The notes under the pieces: model-generated
The model's database searches: none
What the model was told of the DNA's origin: nothing
Seen by the model: only the letters and a program-made list of their open reading frames with translations
In this document: piece after piece, positions 1,605 to 22,638 of the stretch
How the letters are laid out: the number at the start of each line of letters is the position of its first letter
Position numbering within the stretch: the first letter of the stretch is position 1
Assembly: GCF_003001995.1 (NCBI RefSeq)
Contig: NZ_PVNB01000022.1
Coordinates: 1-63,957 of the forward strand
Origin: Orenia metallireducens
GTDB taxonomy: Bacteria; Bacillota; Halanaerobiia; Halobacteroidales; Halobacteroidaceae
Direction of reading: 5' to 3'
DNA: 63,957 bases
Translations under genes and position numbers: made by a program

Positions 1605-3272
1605 ATGATGAAAAAGAGATTAAGTATATTATTAGTAGTAGCCTTAATGGCAGTTTTAGTTACTGCTTGTGGAGGTAATCAAGAAGGAAAAGTAGAAAAA
1701 GATAGTAAAAATAAGCAAGAAGTCGCAAAAGAAGTTAGTGAACAGGATAAATATGGAGGTGTCTTCCAAGGTCGTGTGAAGGCTGACCCACCAACATTGG
1801 ATCCAGCTATGGCAACAGATACTACGTCTAGTAGAGTGATTAGAAATATCTTTGATGGTTTGGTTCAGTTTGACAAAGATTTAAATGTGATTCCAGCGAT
1901 AGCTAAAAGTTGGAATATAAGTGAGGATTCTTTAGTTTGGACCTTTAACTTAAGAAAAGGTGTTAAGTTCCATAATGGAAGAGAAGTGAAAGCAGATGAC
2001 TTTGTTTATACATTTACAAGAATTTTAAATTCTAAGACCAAGTCTCCGCGCACATGGCTGTTTGAAGGGGTTAAGGGTGCTAAGGAATTTATGGAAGGTA
2101 AAGCGGATAAGGTAACTGGACTAAAGGTTCTTGATGATTATACATTCCAAGTAACTTTAGCTGAGCCGTTTACTCCGTTTTTATCGGTGTTAGCAATGGA
2201 GAATGCTTATGTAGTACCTCGAGAAGAGGTTGAAAAATATGGTGAAGAATTTGCTCAATATCCAGTTGGAGCAGGTCCATTTAAATTTGTTGAATGGAAG
2301 CATGATGATAAAGTTGTATTAGAGAAGAATGAAGATTATTATGTAGAAGGTCGTCCTTATTTAGATAAGGTTGTTTATAGAATTATTCCAGAAGGTTCTT
2401 CAGCCTTTGCTGAGTATGAGCAAGGGAATGTTTATCAAAATGTAGATGATGATTTACCAGCAGGACAGATAACAAGAATAATGGATCCTAATGGAGACTT
2501 TGCTGTTGATTTTAAAAGTATTCCTAGGTTAGGGACATTCTATATTGGGTTTAATACTCAAAAGGAACCTTTCAATAATAAAAAAGTACGTCAGGCAATA
2601 AACTATGCGGTAAATAGAAAGGTTCTTGCAGCGGTAGTTATGAATGGAGTTGTAAAACCTGCTAACGGGATCTTACCTCCCACAATGCCAGGATATAATC
2701 CAGATTTAGAAGGCTATGAATATAATTTAGAGAAAGCTAAGAAATTATTAGCAGAGGCAGGTTATAAAGATGGATTACCTGGTCAATTTGAATTAGCTTA
2801 TAATACAGATAAGAAGAATCAAAGAATTGTTGAAGCTATACAGTCTAACTTAAAACAAATTGGGGTTAATGTAAGATTAATTAATATGGATTGGGGTACT
2901 TATATTAAGAAGGTGGATAATGGAGAAACTCAAATGTATAGATTAGCTTGGATTGCTGATTATCCAGATCCAGATAACTTCTTGTATGTATTATTTCATT
3001 CTAAAAATGCTGGACCAGGTGGAAATGGAGCATTTTATAAGAACTCAGAAGTCGATCAGATGTTGGATAAAGCCCGTAGTATGAAACCAGGTAAAGATAG
3101 AATTGCTCTATATCAAAAAATTGAAAAACAGATTGTAGAGGATGCACCATGGATTCCAGTGTATTATTATACAGCACCGATTTTGGTGAAACCATTTGTT
3201 AATAACTATGTATTTACAGCTCAATCAGCACTACCATTGACAAATGTTTGGATAGACCCAAATCATAGATAG
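1605..3272 (+). CDS. Extracellular solute-binding protein family 5 (peptide-binding lipoprotein)
   Basis: A 555-residue lipoprotein. The signal peptide ends in lipobox LVTAC with the acylated Cys near residue 22. The mature part opens with the family-5 pattern KADPPTLDPAMATDTTSS and contains NIFDGLVQFD, TFNLRKGVKFHNG, and the C-terminal APWIPVYYY typical of OppA/DppA. It binds short peptides or similar ligands outside the membrane and delivers them to an ABC importer. The tail of a peptide ABC ATPase lies at 1-131, consistent with a nearby opp/dpp locus. Start: AAGGAGG lies about 12 bases before ATG 1605, and a second ATG follows directly at 1608. The real ligand cannot be told from sequence. 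Confidence 0.9.
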   Translation: MMKKRLSILLVVALMAVLVTACGGNQEGKVEKDSKNKQEVAKEVSEQDKYGGVFQGRVKADPPTLDPAMATDTTSSRVIRNIFDGLVQFDKDLNVIPAIAKSWNISEDSLVWTFNLRKGVKFHNGREVKADDFVYTFTRILNSKTKSPRTWLFEGVKGAKEFMEGKADKVTGLKVLDDYTFQVTLAEPFTPFLSVLAMENAYVVPREEVEKYGEEFAQYPVGAGPFKFVEWKHDDKVVLEKNEDYYVEGRPYLDKVVYRIIPEGSSAFAEYEQGNVYQNVDDDLPAGQITRIMDPNGDFAVDFKSIPRLGTFYIGFNTQKEPFNNKKVRQAINYAVNRKVLAAVVMNGVVKPANGILPPTMPGYNPDLEGYEYNLEKAKKLLAEAGYKDGLPGQFELAYNTDKKNQRIVEAIQSNLKQIGVNVRLINMDWGTYIKKVDNGETQMYRLAWIADYPDPDNFLYVLFHSKNAGPGGNGAFYKNSEVDQMLDKARSMKPGKDRIALYQKIEKQIVEDAPWIPVYYYTAPILVKPFVNNYVFTAQSALPLTNVWIDPNHR

Positions 3273-3282
3273 TAATTATTTT

Positions 3283-3314
3283 AGAGCAGTCGGCGTTAAG
3301 CTGACTGCTCTTTT
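3283..3314 (+). terminator. Rho-independent terminator after the peptide-binding protein
   Basis: AGAGCAGTCGGC pairs with GCTGACTGCTCT (one mismatch) around GTTAA, followed by TTTT, 10 bases after the stop. Confidence 0.85.
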
Positions 3315-3348
3315 GCTATAATTGGATAAGCTATTGGTTGATACTCCT

Positions 3349-3633
3349 TAGATAGATATTAAAACAGTAATGAGTGATGAGTAGATAAGAAAAATTTTAT
3401 TAACAATTTCTCCTCCCGGTTCTCAAATAATAGAGACTCTTCGTGGGATTGATATTTTTAAATCCCCTACTAGTTTCAAGAAACTCTCCGTGATTATAAA
3501 GTTTCTCAAAAACATGAAACTTTATTTCTCCTCAGGTCGGGTTAAAAGAACCCGAAGAACAAGTGATGAGAAGAGATTTTAACTCGTTAACCGTCACTTG
3601 TCACTGATTACTAAAGTATTGCAATATATCCAT
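3349..3633. repeat. Dispersed hairpin element, copy 2 (composite, long)
   Basis: The ends match the family: GATAGATATTAAAACAGTAA on the left and GTATTGCAATATATCCAT on the right. The interior (about 3382-3545) is longer than in copy 1 and contains nested hairpins, including AAGTTTCTC/GAAACTTT and GGGTT/AACCC, plus words like AAGTGATGAG and CACTTGTCACTGATTAC near the ends. It fills most of the 530-base gap between the peptide-binding and 5'-nucleotidase genes. Confidence 0.6.
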
Positions 3634-3802
3634 TAAATCTTATTACCTATATTGAAATTAAACTAGAAAAAACATGTATAACAACATCGTTATTAACAAT
3701 TATTAACATGATATTAAACTTTCCGTAATATTAAGTCTATATAATCATAAGTGGATTTTTATAACTTTTATTAGCAAAATTAGATATAATGGAGGGAAAA
3801 GC

Positions 3803-5593
3803 ATGTTAATAAGAAGAAAAGTGAATAAGTTATTGATTTTTTCTATGGTGATTTTAAGTTTAATGACATTGGTAGGTTGTAGTGATGACAATAGTAGTAA
3901 TAAGGATATTGCTTCTGGTAAAGTGGTTGATTTTAATGGAATAGGTGTTGAAGGAGTAAAGTTAAATAAGGGAAGTATTACTGTTACAACAGATAAAGAA
4001 GGAAGATGGAATATATCAGGATTAAAAGAAGGAGATGTAGTTACTCCAAGTAAAGTTGGATATTCTTTTGAACCCAAAGATTACAGAGTGACAGATGGAA
4101 AAGATAGTGGAATTATTTTTACTGCTACTAAAAAATTAGAAAGAAAACAAGGTGAATTGTACATAGCCCATACCAATGATATTCATGGTAGGGTAGAAGA
4201 AGGAAAGTATGATGGAATGGGGTTAGCAAAGGTTAAGACAAAAATAGATGAACTAAAAGCAGAAAGAGATGTATTAGTACTAGATGCAGGAGACACAATT
4301 CATGGGCAGACTATAGTTCAACTATCAAAGGGAGAGAGTATGATTGAAATTATGAATGCTATAGGGTATGATGCTATGGCAGCTGGAAATCATGATTTCA
4401 ACTATGGGCAAGAGAGATTGGTTGAATTGGATGGAATAGCAGATTTTCCGATTTTATCAGCAAATGTTTACAAAGATAATGGAGATAGATTATTATCACC
4501 TTACAAAATTAAAGAGATAGAAGGGAATAAGGTTGGTATATTTGGACTTTCCACTCCAGAGACAACTTATAAAACCCATCCTAATAATGTAAAAGGCTTA
4601 GAGTTTAAAAACCCTATAGAAGAAGCGAAAATTATGGTAAATCAACTCCAAGCTGAAGGATGTACTATTATTATAGCACTTAGTCACTTAGGATTAGATG
4701 AATCTAGTGAACATACTAGTGAGATGGTAGCAGAGCAAGTTAAAGGTATAGATGTAATTGTTGATGGTCATAGTCATACAAAATTAACAGAAGGTAAGCA
4801 AGTAAAGGAAACATTAATTGTTCAGTCTCAGGAGTATGATAAGAATCTTGGGATAGTTGATATCACAGTAGATCAAGCTGGTGAGATTTCTATTAAGGCA
4901 AGTTTATTTACCAAAGAAGAAGCAGCTAATTTAGAAGAAGATGCAGACATTAAGTCTATAGTAGAAGAGATTAATGCTGAAAATGATGAGGTATTATCAG
5001 AAATAGTAGGAAGTACAGAGGTATTATTAGATGGAGCAAGAGAGAATGTTAGGACAGGTGAGACCAATCTTGGAAATTTAATTACAGATGCTATGTTGAA
5101 TGAGACAGGTGCCGATATAGCTATAACAAATGGTGGAGGAATCAGAGATTCAATAGATGAAGGTGATATTACACTAGGAGAGATTATTACAGTGTTACCT
5201 TTTGGTAATTATGTAGTTGTCAAAGAACTATCAGGTGCAGAGATTAAAGCAGCTATTGAACATGGTATTTCAGCTTATCCAGAAAGTCTAGGTGCATTTC
5301 CTCATATTGCTGGGATGAAGGTTAAGTTTAATCCAAGTAAGGAAGCTGGAAATAGAGTTGTTGAGATAACTGTGAATGGAAAAGTTTTTGATGAAAATGA
5401 GTCTTATCAGGTGGCAACCAATGACTTTATGGCAGCTGGTGGAGACGATTATACAATGTTTGCTGATGATAGTATAGTAGGAGAATATGATGGATTAGAC
5501 CAAGTATTAAATAACTATATTCAAAGTCTAGCAGATCAAACTGTAACAGCAGATATTGCAAAAATTGAAGGAAGAATTGAAGTTGTAGAGTAA
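3803..5593 (+). CDS. 5'-nucleotidase / 2',3'-cyclic phosphodiesterase family lipoprotein
   Basis: A 596-residue surface lipoprotein with lipobox LVGC. Residues about 35-110 form a small carboxypeptidase-regulatory or Ig-like domain, shared with the neighbouring nuclease. The calcineurin-like metallophosphatase domain follows, with HTNDIHG near 123, DAGDTIHG, GNHDF near 195 and DGHSHT, all metal-binding motifs. The C-terminal 5'-nucleotidase domain has NLGNLITDAM, ITNGGGIRDSI and MAAGGDDY. It removes phosphate from extracellular nucleotides. Together with the nuclease 150 bases downstream it could convert DNA or RNA to nucleosides and phosphate. RBS GGAGGG lies seven bases before ATG. Confidence 0.92.
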   Translation: MLIRRKVNKLLIFSMVILSLMTLVGCSDDNSSNKDIASGKVVDFNGIGVEGVKLNKGSITVTTDKEGRWNISGLKEGDVVTPSKVGYSFEPKDYRVTDGKDSGIIFTATKKLERKQGELYIAHTNDIHGRVEEGKYDGMGLAKVKTKIDELKAERDVLVLDAGDTIHGQTIVQLSKGESMIEIMNAIGYDAMAAGNHDFNYGQERLVELDGIADFPILSANVYKDNGDRLLSPYKIKEIEGNKVGIFGLSTPETTYKTHPNNVKGLEFKNPIEEAKIMVNQLQAEGCTIIIALSHLGLDESSEHTSEMVAEQVKGIDVIVDGHSHTKLTEGKQVKETLIVQSQEYDKNLGIVDITVDQAGEISIKASLFTKEEAANLEEDADIKSIVEEINAENDEVLSEIVGSTEVLLDGARENVRTGETNLGNLITDAMLNETGADIAITNGGGIRDSIDEGDITLGEIITVLPFGNYVVVKELSGAEIKAAIEHGISAYPESLGAFPHIAGMKVKFNPSKEAGNRVVEITVNGKVFDENESYQVATNDFMAAGGDDYTMFADDSIVGEYDGLDQVLNNYIQSLADQTVTADIAKIEGRIEVVE

Positions 5594-17844: not shown

Positions 17845-17872
17845 GAACCCCCACTAAAATTCAGTGGGGGTA
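17845..17872 (-). terminator. Strong hairpin between convergent genes
   Basis: ACCCCCACT and AGTGGGGGT form a perfect 9-bp GC-rich stem around AAAATTC. There is no long T-run on either side; TTCTCTT follows on the minus strand. It lies between the ends of the HD-GYP gene and the minus-strand repeat gene and probably serves both. Confidence 0.6.
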
Positions 17873-17908: not shown

Positions 17909-18232
17909 TTATCTTCTCCTTCTATCACGGTCCCAATCTCTGTCACGGTCCCAATCTCTATCACGGTCCCAATCTCTGTCACGGTCCCAATCTCTGTCAC
18001 GGTCCCAATCTCTATCATGGTCCCAATCTCTGTCACGGTCCCAATCTCTATCATGGTCCCAATCTCTGTCACGATCCCAATCTTTGTCACGATCCCAATC
18101 TCTGTCACGGTCCCAATCTCTGTCACGGTCCCAATCTCTGTCACGATCCCAATCTTTGTCACGGTCCCAGTCTCTGTCACGGTCCCATCTATCTCTGTCT
18201 CGTCTACCTCTATCTCTGCGATATCTTCCCAT
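17909..18232 (-). CDS. Asp-Arg-Asp-Arg-Asp-Trp hexapeptide repeat protein (candidate spore-coat protein)
   Basis: A 107-residue protein made almost only of D, R and W. After [16 protein letters not shown] come 14 hexapeptides of the form D-R/H-D-R/K-D-W and a basic tail DRDRRRR. The DNA is an 18-bp tandem repeat with silent and conservative variation, so the frame is under some selection. The minus frame is chosen because AAAGGAGGG lies seven bases before its ATG; the open plus-strand frames have no ribosome site. A sigma-K-like promoter (18264-18272 with GT at 18290) lies just upstream, and the gerK operon is the next locus. No family was recognised. A coat or condensate-forming polyampholyte is inference. 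Confidence 0.72.
17926..18195. repeat. 18-bp in-frame tandem repeat
   Basis: About 14-15 copies of the unit GGTCCCAATCTCTGTCAC read on the plus strand, with point variants (TATCATGG, CACGATCC, AATCTTTG). There are no spacers, so this is not a CRISPR array. It encodes the DRDRDW repeats on the minus strand. Copy number is expected to vary between strains by slippage. Confidence 0.92.
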
Positions 18233-18263
18233 TAACGTTCCCTCCTTTCATCTCTTTTGTTAT

Positions 18264-18291
18264 TATAATATGGAAAACGATTAAAAAATGT
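18264..18291 (-). promoter_or_regulatory. Sigma-K-like promoter of the repeat gene
   Basis: On the minus strand AC is followed by 17 bases and then CATATTATA, matching the Bacillus sigma-K pattern AC-N16/17-CATANNNTA. The transcript would start about 25 bases before the gene. The motif is short and could arise by chance in AT-rich DNA. Confidence 0.45.
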
Positions 18292-18528
18292 TAACATATA
18301 AACCAATATTTACATTAAAATCAATTTTATAAATTGATAAAGTAGTGTGTGCCTGAGCAATATAGAGGCAATTTTTACAGAATATTAGTTAGAGATGAAG
18401 AATAAGTCTTTATTTTTAGCTATGCATTTTTATAGATAATAATTATCTTAGATATGTAAATAATAGTGGTATGATCTAAATACTAACTAGTATATTTACA
18501 TCTTGTGATAATAGAAAAACTGATACAG

Positions 18529-18669
18529 TATAGAAATATTACGACACTTTGCAACTAAGTATAAGGCTAAGATTAAGTTTGAGTAAATCATAAAAACACT
18601 GCTTAAACTATCCTTAGACTTATACTTAATCTTATACTTAAACTCAAAAAGTGTCGCAATATACTCATA
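18529..18669. repeat. Dispersed hairpin element, copy 3
   Basis: This is the best-preserved ends pair: TATAGAAATATTACGACACT on the left and AGTGTCGCAATATACTCATA on the right, self-complementary over about 22 bases with few mismatches. The interior is also a long imperfect hairpin (AAGTATAAGGCTAAGATTAA against ACTTATACTTAATCTTATAC). It sits in the gap before gerKA. Confidence 0.78.
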
Positions 18670-18753
18670 AAAAGACACTATTTATATTGAAAATTAACCA
18701 AGATAACAGGCTATATTTAATTGATAATATATTAAATGGAGGATTTTTCAATA

Positions 18754-20322
18754 ATGATATTAGATAAATTAAAAAATATATTTGGAATTAAAAATAAAGA
18801 GCAGAAGATAGATGATATAGTATCTGCTAAAGTAATCGCTATATCTAAATCTCTACATAAGAATAAGAACTCCTTAGAGAAGATATTTTCAAAAAGTGAT
18901 GATTTAATCTATAGAAAGATTTATTTAGAAAATAGCAATACTTCTTTATTATTGGTATGCATCGATGGAATGGTGGAAAGAGATTTAATTGCTGATCATA
19001 TATTAACTCCTCTACAACTAGAAGATAATAAGGGAGATATTACAATTAATTTAGAAAAAATCAAGGAAAAGCTAATAACCACTTTAGAAGTAGAAATAAG
19101 TAAGGGTTTTCAACAATTGACACGTTCTTTATTATCAGGCAATACCTTGTTATTTATTGAAGGGTATAAGCAGGCTCTGATGATTGGGACAACAGGATGG
19201 GAGGCAAGGAGTATAGAATCTCCTGCGTCTGAAGAGACTATTGGAGGTTCCCGGGAAGGTTTTATAGAATCAATCAAAACCAATATATCTTTGATTAGAA
19301 AAAGAATCAAAACCCCTAAATTAGCAGTAGAATTATTAGAAGTAGGTCGTAAAACAAGGACAAATATAGCTCTTGTCTATCTTAAAGGTGTGATTAATCA
19401 TGAATTAGTTGGTGAGGTCAGAAATAGGATTGAAGAGATCGATACTGATGGTATAGTAGGTAGTTCTCAAATAGAACAATTAATTGAGAATCATAAATGG
19501 AGCATATTTCCTCAGATTATGTCAACAGAAAGAGTTGATAAGACTGTAGGTAGTATATTAGAAGGAAGGATTACTATTATTGTAGATGGGACTCCCTTTG
19601 TCTTAATTGCACCAGTAACCTTTGCTACCTTTCTAAATAGTCCTGATGATTACTATGAAAGAAGTATTACTAGTTCTGCTATGCGGGTTGTCAGATATAT
19701 CAGTTATGTTTTAACAACGACTCTTCCTGCTCTTTATCTAGCTTTAACAGCGTATCATCCTGGAATGATACCAACTCCTTTAGTTCTAACAATTACAGAA
19801 AGTAGAATGGGATTGCCTTTTCCTACTATTGTAGAGGTTTTAATCATGGAGTTTACCTTAGAGATCTTAACAGAAGCGAGTATCAGATTACCTAGACCTA
19901 TTGGACAAGCAGTGAGTATTGTAGGAGGTTTGGTAATTGGTCAAGCGGCTGTACAGGCAGGAATCGTTAGTCCTTTAATTATTATTGTAGTCTCATTAAC
20001 TGCTTTAACCTCTTTTGTAATTCCTGTGTATAGCTTTACCCTAAGTAATAGGTTAATCAGATTTCCTTTAATAATTATGGGAGGTTTAGCAGGGTTATAT
20101 GGTATCTTTATGGGTTGGATCTTTATATTAATTCATCTTGCTTCCATAGAGAGTTTTGGGGTAAGATATCTTGGTGATTTTTCTCCTTATAAGCTAGAGC
20201 ATTTAAAAGATACTATTATTAAAGTACCACAGGGTTGGATGACCCAACGACCTGAGATATTAAATGTGGAAGATACTAAAAAACAAGATATCGAAAAGGC
20301 TAGGATGATAGTTGATGAGTAG
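18754..20322 (+). CDS. gerKA: Spore germination protein, GerA family A subunit
   Basis: A 522-residue membrane protein of the GerAA/GerKA family. The N-terminal cytoplasmic half of about 250 residues contains LLVCIDGMVERDLI, GNTLLFIEG and ESPASEETIGGSREGF, the family hallmark. The C-terminal half has about five TM segments with TESRMGLPFPTIVEVL and IGQAVSIVGGLVIGQAAVQA. With the B and C subunits it forms the germinant receptor in the spore inner membrane. An upstream in-frame ATG at 18736 precedes the RBS; GGAGG (18738-18742) points to ATG 18754. The stop overlaps the start of the B gene. The K-type symbol is by resemblance only. Confidence 0.9.
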   Translation: MILDKLKNIFGIKNKEQKIDDIVSAKVIAISKSLHKNKNSLEKIFSKSDDLIYRKIYLENSNTSLLLVCIDGMVERDLIADHILTPLQLEDNKGDITINLEKIKEKLITTLEVEISKGFQQLTRSLLSGNTLLFIEGYKQALMIGTTGWEARSIESPASEETIGGSREGFIESIKTNISLIRKRIKTPKLAVELLEVGRKTRTNIALVYLKGVINHELVGEVRNRIEEIDTDGIVGSSQIEQLIENHKWSIFPQIMSTERVDKTVGSILEGRITIIVDGTPFVLIAPVTFATFLNSPDDYYERSITSSAMRVVRYISYVLTTTLPALYLALTAYHPGMIPTPLVLTITESRMGLPFPTIVEVLIMEFTLEILTEASIRLPRPIGQAVSIVGGLVIGQAAVQAGIVSPLIIIVVSLTALTSFVIPVYSFTLSNRLIRFPLIIMGGLAGLYGIFMGWIFILIHLASIESFGVRYLGDFSPYKLEHLKDTIIKVPQGWMTQRPEILNVEDTKKQDIEKARMIVDE

Positions 20323-21403
20323 AGAGTTAGAGAGTATCAATATCTGTTCCTTTATTATCCATGGAATGATCAGTATTAGGCTTTTAAGTATACCAAGGGC
20401 TATTGTAGAGTATGCAGAGAATGATAGTTGGATATCAGTATTAATTATGGGGGGATATGCTTTATTAATAGGTTATTTATTTTATTGGTTAGGACTTAGA
20501 TATAAAAGTCTTACTTTTTCTCAGATTTGTGAAAAAGTATATGGAAAGTTTTTTGGTAAAATTATCATCCTTGGAATTGCTATTTATACTATAATCTCTT
20601 TTAGTTTGGGAATCAGACTTTTTACCGATGGTATCCGAATCTTTCTATTGGATACAACACCAATAATATTTATAATAACTATTATGATATTAGCCTGTCT
20701 ATATTGCTTATTAAAAGGAGTTAGAACAATTAGTATTATTTTAGATATGCTATTGCCACTGATATTAGCTTTTATCTTACTTTTGGTTTTCTTGTCTTTA
20801 AAGAATGTTAAATTTATTCATTTAAGACCTTTCTTTTATGGGGGAGTTAAACCAATCTTACAGGGTGCTCGTGAGATGGCAGATCCTTTTTTAACAGTAG
20901 GAATTATTGGCTATGTGCTACCTTATTTTAAAAATTTTAAAAAGATGAAAAAATGGATAGCAATTAGTGTTAGCATCAGTGTAGCTGTATATACTATAAT
21001 TTTATTGCTGTGTATTATGGCCTTTGGTAGTACTGAAATCAAGTATTTAATCTTTCCCACTATCACTTTATCTAAATCAATAATGCTAGAAAGCAATATT
21101 CTAGAGAGGGCTGAAAGTTTATATATGGCAGCCTGGATTCCTATTACCTTTAGTACTTTATTATTATTTTACCTAGCTTCTACCCTTAATTTAAAGGCAT
21201 TTTTTAATACAAAAAAGGATAGAGTTATTATTTTCAGTCAAGTTCCGTTATTTTTAGTGCTAGCTTTATATCCTGATAATATTTCAGAAGTATTTTATCT
21301 TATCGGTTGGAATGAAGATTTGGGACAGTTATTAATATTTTTAATAGTTCCTTTAACAGCAATGATTGAATTTTTTAAGGAAAGGAGGAAAAATTTAAAA
21401 TGA
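20315..21403 (+). CDS. gerKB: Spore germination protein, GerA family B subunit
   Basis: A 362-residue integral membrane protein with about ten TM segments, in the endospore germination permease branch of the APC superfamily. ISIRLLSIPRAIVEYAENDS near the N-terminus is the typical first segment. It likely binds the germinant. ATG 20315 lies inside the last codons of gerKA, and the end overlaps the gerKC start by four bases (ATGA type), so the three genes are translationally coupled. An alternative TTG lies one codon upstream. Confidence 0.9.
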   Translation: MSRELESINICSFIIHGMISIRLLSIPRAIVEYAENDSWISVLIMGGYALLIGYLFYWLGLRYKSLTFSQICEKVYGKFFGKIIILGIAIYTIISFSLGIRLFTDGIRIFLLDTTPIIFIITIMILACLYCLLKGVRTISIILDMLLPLILAFILLLVFLSLKNVKFIHLRPFFYGGVKPILQGAREMADPFLTVGIIGYVLPYFKNFKKMKKWIAISVSISVAVYTIILLLCIMAFGSTEIKYLIFPTITLSKSIMLESNILERAESLYMAAWIPITFSTLLLFYLASTLNLKAFFNTKKDRVIIFSQVPLFLVLALYPDNISEVFYLIGWNEDLGQLLIFLIVPLTAMIEFFKERRKNLK

Positions 21404-22638
21404 AATTTTTATTAAGTAGATACTCTAAGCTATTTCTATCTTTATTATTTATAATTATCATGATAGGATGCTGGGATTATAAAGAGATTGAAAATAGAGG
21501 ATATGTTTTAGGAATAGCTATAGATAAGCCTAAGCCACTTCCTAAGGGCTATGAAAATGACCAATCCTATCAAGAGGAGAAAAAATTAGAAAGGATGGAA
21601 TTACAACAAGGAGAGCCTAGATATGCCTATACTATTCAAATTCCGATTCTGCCCAAGGCGCAAGTTAAGCCTATCGGTGGAGGAGGAGGAGGGGGAGGGG
21701 CAGAAAGCTCTAGATCATGGGATTTAACTTTATTAGGTAATTCTTTTTTTGAAGCAAATCGAGAATTTTCTACTAGATTAAATTATGCTCCCTTCTATGA
21801 ACATCTAAAAGTTATTATTATTAATGAAAAAGTTGCTAGAGAGGGAATTATACCTCCTTTAGATATGATTCTACGGGATCCTGAAATGAGAAGAAGGACT
21901 AAAGTTTTTGTTACATCTGAAGAGGCACATAAGATCTTAGATGTTACACCAAGAATAGATGACTATGCTGCTATGTACTTAGCAGATCTTCCTCGAAATG
22001 CTACTAAAACCTCTAGAATGCCTCATATTACAGATTTGGGAGAGGTTGCAGAGAGTCTACATGGACAGGTGGATTTTGGCTTGCCAATAGTTATTTCTAC
22101 CAGTGATGAGATTAAGATAATAGGAGCAGCAGCTTTTAAAGGAGACAAGATGGTAGGAAGATTAAGTGGAATTCAGACTATTTATGCTAAATGGATTAGA
22201 GATGCAATTAAGGGTGGAGTTATTGTAATCAAAGCACGTCATAATCCTAATATTTTACTAACCTTAGAGCTAAAAAAAGTAAAGACAAAGCTAAGACCAA
22301 TTGTAGATGGTGATAATGTTAAAATATTAATTAAATCTAAGGCTGTAATTAACTTAGCTGAAGAATCAGAAACTCGTTATAAAGATGCTTTAAAGCAAGA
22401 TTTTATAAAAAATATAGAGCAAGGAGCAAAGGATGAAATTGAAAGTAATATTAAAGAAACAATTAAATATGTTCAACAGGAGTTAGGAGCTGATATATTT
22501 CATTTTAAGGTTATCTTACAAAAATTTGCACCAAAGACTTGGGAGCAGGTAGAAGATGATTGGTATGAAGTCTTTAGAAATTTGGATATTGTAGTTGATG
22601 TAGATGTTGAGTTAGAGTATATTGGAACTGTAAAGTAA
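21400..22638 (+). CDS. gerKC: Spore germination lipoprotein, GerA family C subunit
   Basis: A 412-residue lipoprotein with lipobox MIGC and the family start CWDYKEIENRGYVLGIAID. The remainder follows the Ger(x)C pattern (PFYEHLKVIIINEKVAREG, then RDPEMRRRTKVFV, and a C-terminal domain with WEQVEDDWYEVFRN). Odd feature: a run of eight Gly codons at 21676-21700 (PIGGGGGGGG), encoded by a purine-rich slippery tract, within a surface loop. RBS AAGGAGG precedes the ATG. It completes the germinant receptor operon. Confidence 0.9.
   Translation: MKFLLSRYSKLFLSLLFIIIMIGCWDYKEIENRGYVLGIAIDKPKPLPKGYENDQSYQEEKKLERMELQQGEPRYAYTIQIPILPKAQVKPIGGGGGGGGAESSRSWDLTLLGNSFFEANREFSTRLNYAPFYEHLKVIIINEKVAREGIIPPLDMILRDPEMRRRTKVFVTSEEAHKILDVTPRIDDYAAMYLADLPRNATKTSRMPHITDLGEVAESLHGQVDFGLPIVISTSDEIKIIGAAAFKGDKMVGRLSGIQTIYAKWIRDAIKGGVIVIKARHNPNILLTLELKKVKTKLRPIVDGDNVKILIKSKAVINLAEESETRYKDALKQDFIKNIEQGAKDEIESNIKETIKYVQQELGADIFHFKVILQKFAPKTWEQVEDDWYEVFRNLDIVVDVDVELEYIGTVK

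Follow-up and report, generated by a model that had tools for sequence, protein, structure and literature searches.

A 63,957-nt stretch of the Orenia metallireducens genome (contig NZ_PVNB01000022.1, referred to here as the window) carries on its minus strand a short gene that consists almost entirely of an 18-bp repeat. This locus raises the question of whether the array is translated and, if so, which process its product serves. The ORF list holds an intact reading frame of 107 aa with an ATG start and no internal stop (Table 1). An initial sequence-only reading had described 14 tandem hexapeptides, and this was confirmed: TRF gives an 18-bp period with 14.8 copies and 91% matches, by far the strongest array of the window, and the hexapeptide units number exactly 14 in perfect phase (10 DRDRDW, two DRDKDW, and two DHDRDW). 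The variation is mostly synonymous or conservative, as had been proposed, with seven synonymous changes, all at Asp third positions, and four conservative ones (R to K or R to H) among 11 departures from the unit consensus. Trp is present in every unit. The composition is D47 R37 W15 K2 H2 with little else, and Ser and Thr are absent. The protein had been called near-neutral, which does not quite hold, as the computed pI is 4.9 and the charge about −8 at pH 7, making it mildly acidic. The RBS and the hairpin behind the gene were both recovered where they had been expected.

Table 1. Features of the repeat gene and its surroundings, in window coordinates.
Feature	Position	Strand	Remarks
CDS, 107-aa repeat protein	17909..18232	-	16-aa leader + (D[RH]D[RK]DW)14 + DRDRRRR
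Leader, 16 aa	18185..18232	-	resembles YmaF starts within the genus (MGRYQRDRDRRR, MGKYQRDRERRR)
Array of 14 18-bp units encoding D[RH]D[RK]DW	17933..18184	-	TRF and unit count
C-terminal DRDRRRR and stop	17909..17932	-	congener ends likewise
RBS GAAAGGAGGG (contains GGAGG)	18240..18249	-	7 nt before ATG; conserved in congener G001
Sigma-K/sigma-E-like promoter, AAC (18292-18290)-N17-CATATTATA (18272-18264)	18264..18292	-	common to YmaF genes
Conserved 100-bp upstream block	18233..18332	-	39/50 and 43/50 identical to G001; holds RBS, promoter and TAAAATTGATTTtAATGTAAATATTGG
Terminator-like hairpin ACCCCCACTGAATTTTAGTGGGGGT, then TCTCTT; T-rich tail	17847..17871	-	sole terminator-like match in the region
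Divergent gerA/gerK-type germinant receptor operon (GerA, spore permease, GerAC)	18736..22638	+	neighbour, outside the unit

Pfam assigns no family to the repeat protein or to its orthologue in a congener (G001), and NCBIfam returns only low-complexity look-alikes, among which matches to MSCRAMM/SdrC and to splicing factors were rejected as low complexity only. No mention of the DRDRDW motif was found in the literature searched. An AF2 run on the repeat gave no structure, and the repeat is probably disordered. The earlier statement that no family contains this repeat therefore stands for the free-standing protein. It fails for the repeat itself, which occurs on the tails of YmaF proteins. What appears to be new is a free-standing, tail-only protein without a Pfam or NCBIfam description, while the YmaF family behind it is known.

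This link emerged from a search of relatives, in which the 18-bp DRDRDW unit was found as the C-terminal tail of His-rich YmaF (PF12788) proteins in two other families of Halanaerobiia. One of these loci (L003; PF12788 E-value 2e-23) encodes 14 DRDRDW units and one DRDRDC, and the other (L004; 5e-22) comes from a GenBank Halanaerobiales MAG. Looser D/R/W tails recur behind YmaF domains over two further families (genomes G039, G040, and G050). The YmaF genes of the window genome (G000), of G001, and of a third genome of the genus (G002) are tail-less, with two in tandem in G000 and G001. Within the unit, the Arg codons follow the order CGT first and AGA second in the window, in G001, and in G023, a genome with a tailed YmaF, and the order is CGG/AGA in G030, another such genome. 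The window gene thus carries tandem DRDRDW units in the codon order of YmaF tails. Since only 9% of the Arg codons of neighbouring genes are CGT, the common order favours common descent of the unit in the repeat gene and the YmaF tails over pure convergence; the YmaF tails of G023 and G030 could themselves be convergent.

The N-termini also agree. The repeat protein starts with MGRYRRDR and the YmaF proteins of the genus with MGRYQRDR, MGKYQRDR, or VGRYRRDR, and 20-22 of the first 24 nt are identical between the leader and the YmaF genes. The leader pattern ATGGGNMRNTAYMRNMGNGAY matches only repeat and YmaF genes in the three genomes of the genus, against a chance expectation of about 0.1 (estimated by hand). 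An MG[RKN]Y start, which the repeat protein possesses, is typical of Halanaerobiia YmaF, as a trait of the lineage rather than a Pfam criterion. The His-rich YmaF domain (HxH pairs, T-G-P-A-I core) is absent from the repeat protein at the Pfam cut-off, so the protein is not filed as YmaF and is treated as a YmaF-associated, tail-only relative. In comparison with the tailed YmaF proteins of L003 and L004, it has the same unit and codon order, a similar MG[RKN]Y.RDR start, and the same promoter/RBS layout, but consists of leader and tail only, whereas the tailed proteins carry the His-rich domain.

YmaF occurs in 97 of 398 sampled genomes of the phylum. In Clostridioides difficile, expression of the YmaF homologue CD3620 falls to 0.04 in a sigK mutant and the protein is marked as spore-associated by proteomics (PMC3789822), and a YmaF-family protein is an E-cadherin-binding candidate on the spore surface (PMC13339774). 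In Bacillus subtilis, ymaF has an early-sporulation promoter (PMC4410918) and was a hit in germination Tn-seq (PMC6568419). No biochemical function of YmaF was found in the literature searched, nor was a relative of solved structure; the structure model is of low confidence and beta-rich, and Foldseek returned no significant match. In some distant YmaF proteins from other genomes of the phylum (L110, L111), the tail is a different low-complexity sequence, rich in Cys, Asp, and Gly/Arg, so that variable tails may be a general feature of the family.

The repeat and YmaF genes also resemble each other upstream. Over the 100 bases preceding the ATG, the window and G001 agree at 82 positions, and similarity farther upstream is at background. 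When repeat and YmaF genes are aligned upstream of their starts, they share gTAACa-N16/17-CATAtnATAa a short distance ahead of the RBS. The exact pattern AAC-N17-CATATTATAA has two sites in G000, one before the repeat gene and one before a YmaF gene, and two in G001 before the counterparts of these genes; the one match in G002 is unconnected with spore genes. Reversed-pattern controls gave 1-2 matches per genome, so that the promoter argument lies in the genes preceded and not in the number of sites. The combined pattern CATANNATA-RBS-RTGGG gave 10 matches over the three genomes, seven of which are all five YmaF and both repeat genes, and none in the control; like the leader pattern, these promoter patterns are short sequences designed after the alignment was seen, and their genome-wide scope is that of pattern searches. 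Promoters of C. difficile sigma-K have been described with AC and CATATAAT boxes, and one sigma-E promoter as ATA-N16-CATATATA (PMC3789822). The repeat gene matches the AC / CATAnnnTA sequence of the sigma-K regulon at a spacing of 16-17 before its RBS, and by sequence the repeat and YmaF sites are a better fit to sigma-K than to sigma-E. The sigma-K-like promoter suspected at the outset is thus borne out, being conserved in the congener and common to YmaF genes. Among the points against the explanation given below is the state of sigK itself. In the draft assembly G000, only the N-terminal half of this gene was seen, next to a recombinase gene, and a search of the assembly did not recover the remainder.

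The gene has an intact orthologue in G001 (L005:1489-1719), which encodes 76 aa with nine DRDRDW units and diverges from the same gerKA. The leader is nearly the same in the two proteins and the RRRR end is the same, while the repeat number is nine versus 14. Thus, of the comparisons suggested with the sequence-only reading, the search of relatives led to YmaF tails in Halanaerobiia and the repeat count differed between congeners, and the homologue is not a frameshifted remnant without RBS or frame, as it would be at a spurious locus, but an intact gene with its RBS conserved. In G002, YmaF is present and the repeat protein absent, which implies that the repeat protein is dispensable; the syntenic place there lacks both gerK and the repeat gene. 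Free-standing repeat proteins are known only from the two species of G000 and G001. A search for DWDRDRDW over about 85,000 species genomes yielded 29 stretches, among which a long regular tandem array was found only in a Halanaerobiales YmaF (same genome as G023); the rest comprise isolated motifs, short runs, stretches in other frames, and D/R-rich proteins that are unrelated. One match in viral contigs was judged to be chance.

Several other accounts of the array have to be weighed against descent from a YmaF tail. The array DNA is open in further frames, including plus-strand frames that would read SQSLSR or VTVPIS repeats, and the changes inside the array are just as well tolerated when it is read as antisense SQSLSR (nine synonymous and two non-synonymous), so array substitutions alone are not decisive for strand or frame; third codon positions of the DRDRDW frame hold most of the variation in all four genes compared (7/11, 7/8, 14/17, and 9/9). 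The minus-strand frame is settled instead by the G001 orthologue, the conserved upstream 100 bp, the in-frame fusions to YmaF, which fix both strand and frame, and the leader, RBS, and promoter on that strand. These signals and the terminator all lie on the minus strand, and all save the terminator are conserved. Rfam returned no family for the array, and we regard plus-strand coding or a non-coding array as very improbable. A more serious contender, though still an unlikely one, is that the array is an in-frame minisatellite driven by slippage within a dispensable small gene, whose protein is made and has no specific role or only provides bulk. The copy number of 14 versus nine, the lack of the gene in G002, and the finding that D/R-rich low-complexity repeats arise repeatedly in unrelated proteins all agree with such an origin. 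Mere slippage would not account for non-synonymous changes that are few and conservative, nor for a Trp retained throughout the window array. In addition, conservation between species extends to the leader, the RRRR end, the RBS, and the promoter but not to the flanks, and D/R/W tails recur on YmaF in two further families.

The divergent gerK operon suggests a different function, that of a spore protein of the germination apparatus coupled to the germinant receptor. The two are divergent neighbours in G000 and G001, and both are missing from the syntenic place in G002. In G001 (L079/L005, C7), however, gerKA is truncated near residue 325 and both gerKB and gerKC are missing, the next gene being the oxidoreductase that in the window follows gerKC, and the repeat gene is whole. 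Since G001 lost most of gerK yet kept the repeat gene, the neighbourhood is weak evidence of function, and the 3-kb loci of tailed YmaF in G023 and G030 contain no ger genes; coupling to gerK is accordingly improbable. The original proposal of a spore protein survives through the promoter held in common with YmaF genes and the YmaF tails, while adjacency to gerK as its basis does not. Just as doubtful is that the protein binds nucleic acids or ribonucleoproteins, like the RD stretch of NELF-E or U1-70K, and has no place in the coat. The RD stretch of NELF-E is the sole sequence match among solved structures (E about 1e-6), but this match is compositional only, the repeat protein is net acidic, and both the association with YmaF and the sporulation promoter argue for the spore surface.

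The best explanation of the locus, and in our judgement a probable one, is that the window gene encodes a real, translated low-complexity protein derived as a detached and expanded YmaF-type tail, which would be a mother-cell, sigma-K-dependent coat component beside YmaF and a disordered polyampholyte with Trp "stickers". The gene would be transcribed late in sporulation by sigma-K RNA polymerase in the mother cell, along with the tail-less YmaF paralogues. The MG[RKN]Y-RDR leader would serve as a common docking or addressing end of the repeat protein and YmaF, and the two would reach the forespore surface together. There, the D/R polyampholyte, with a Trp per six residues, would act as a multivalent sticker chain through Arg-Asp pairing and Arg-Trp and Trp-Trp contacts, and would pack alongside YmaF in the coat or exosporium, where it would fill space or form cross-links. 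Where relatives have the fused form, a single chain would combine both functions. The Trp at each sixth residue would, speculatively, help to hold contacts at high salt.

Joint action of YmaF and the repeat is predicted from their fusion in some families and separation in this genus. This pattern, together with analogies from two known systems, suggests co-expression with YmaF and filling or cross-linking of the coat. In CotG of B. subtilis, a coat protein, charged tandem repeats dominate as they do in the window protein (CotB has comparable SKR repeats). Charged repeats of the CotG type act as spacers that affect coat permeability (PMC9765600), and those of CotG are positively charged, Ser-rich, and phosphorylated by CotH (PMC7821199). 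In contrast, the window protein is net negative, has no Ser or Thr and only the two Lys, and thus falls outside the CotG family. The RD/RED dipeptide repeats of NELF-E, U1-70K, and Arabidopsis EMB1579 form an alternating Arg/Asp polyampholyte, as in the window protein, and RED repeats promote condensate formation in EMB1579 (PMC7413564). These are eukaryotic nuclear proteins without regular Trp, however, and the likeness is compositional.

A more specific version of the detached-tail reading, offered tentatively and with less confidence, is that a YmaF-type coat protein was split into two chains, one a folded, His-rich head and the other a free polyampholyte with Trp stickers, the latter of which would form a coat layer by condensation via its spaced Trp residues. 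If true, this would constitute a bacterial counterpart of the eukaryotic RD/RED condensate repeats, as a coat material of a halophile lineage. For YmaF, a widespread but uncharacterised sporulation family, the repeat protein suggests a partner and a two-module design of His-rich head and polyampholyte tail. The DRDRDW repeat is also a nearly ideal natural sticker-spacer polymer with a six-residue period.

Similar low-complexity sequences were encountered elsewhere. Low-complexity ORFs rich in D/R/W also occur in other Firmicutes; one example, a Clostridium sp. Marseille-P2415 ORF (L054; NRDWDCNRDWGRNGDW...), contains short-period D/R/N/G/W repeats in a relative of spore-formers. It differs from the window protein in its irregular repeat and Cys-rich end, no link to YmaF was seen at this locus, and its repeat is probably convergent. 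A second match in the window genome itself (contig C20, L002), to a D/S/A/V-rich protein, was rejected as a relative because the similarity is compositional only. This 345-aa protein (G000:C20:53630-53860, ORF 1387-2424; also L010 in G001) consists largely of Asp/Val/Ala and Ser/Glu/Asp repeats, lies downstream of a 281-aa ORF, and is likewise of extreme low complexity.

With regard to sigK in the genus, the N-terminal fragment in G000 (L140, C31:28000-38000, 2748-4482) directly adjoins a gene for a large serine recombinase in convergent orientation. G002 has the two halves on separate contigs (L142 2263-3978 and L143 4185-4625), with a recombinase gene adjoining the N-terminal half. In G001 (L141 1615-2340 and 7184-7648), an intact sigK is followed about 5 kb downstream by a duplicate of its C-terminal part. 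These arrangements are consistent with a skin-type element, which appears to interrupt the gene in this genus.

The layout of sigma-K-like promoter and RBS recurs before a 30-aa ORF, VGDYGNRAEGGSYVFVIFLILILLLLGGEY (L135; G000:C36:33902-33945), which has no Pfam or NCBIfam match and by eye looks similar to the tiny YjcZ-type transmembrane proteins of spores. The block TAAAATTGATTTtAATGTAAATATTGG (18305-18332), which lies upstream of the −35 element of the repeat gene, is nearly identical in both species and may serve as a site for a regulator. A long imperfect palindrome (TAAGTATAAGGCTAAGATTAAGTTTGAG ... CTTAATCTTATACTTAAACTC) is visible by eye at 18545-18665, in the intergenic region that separates the repeat gene from gerKA.
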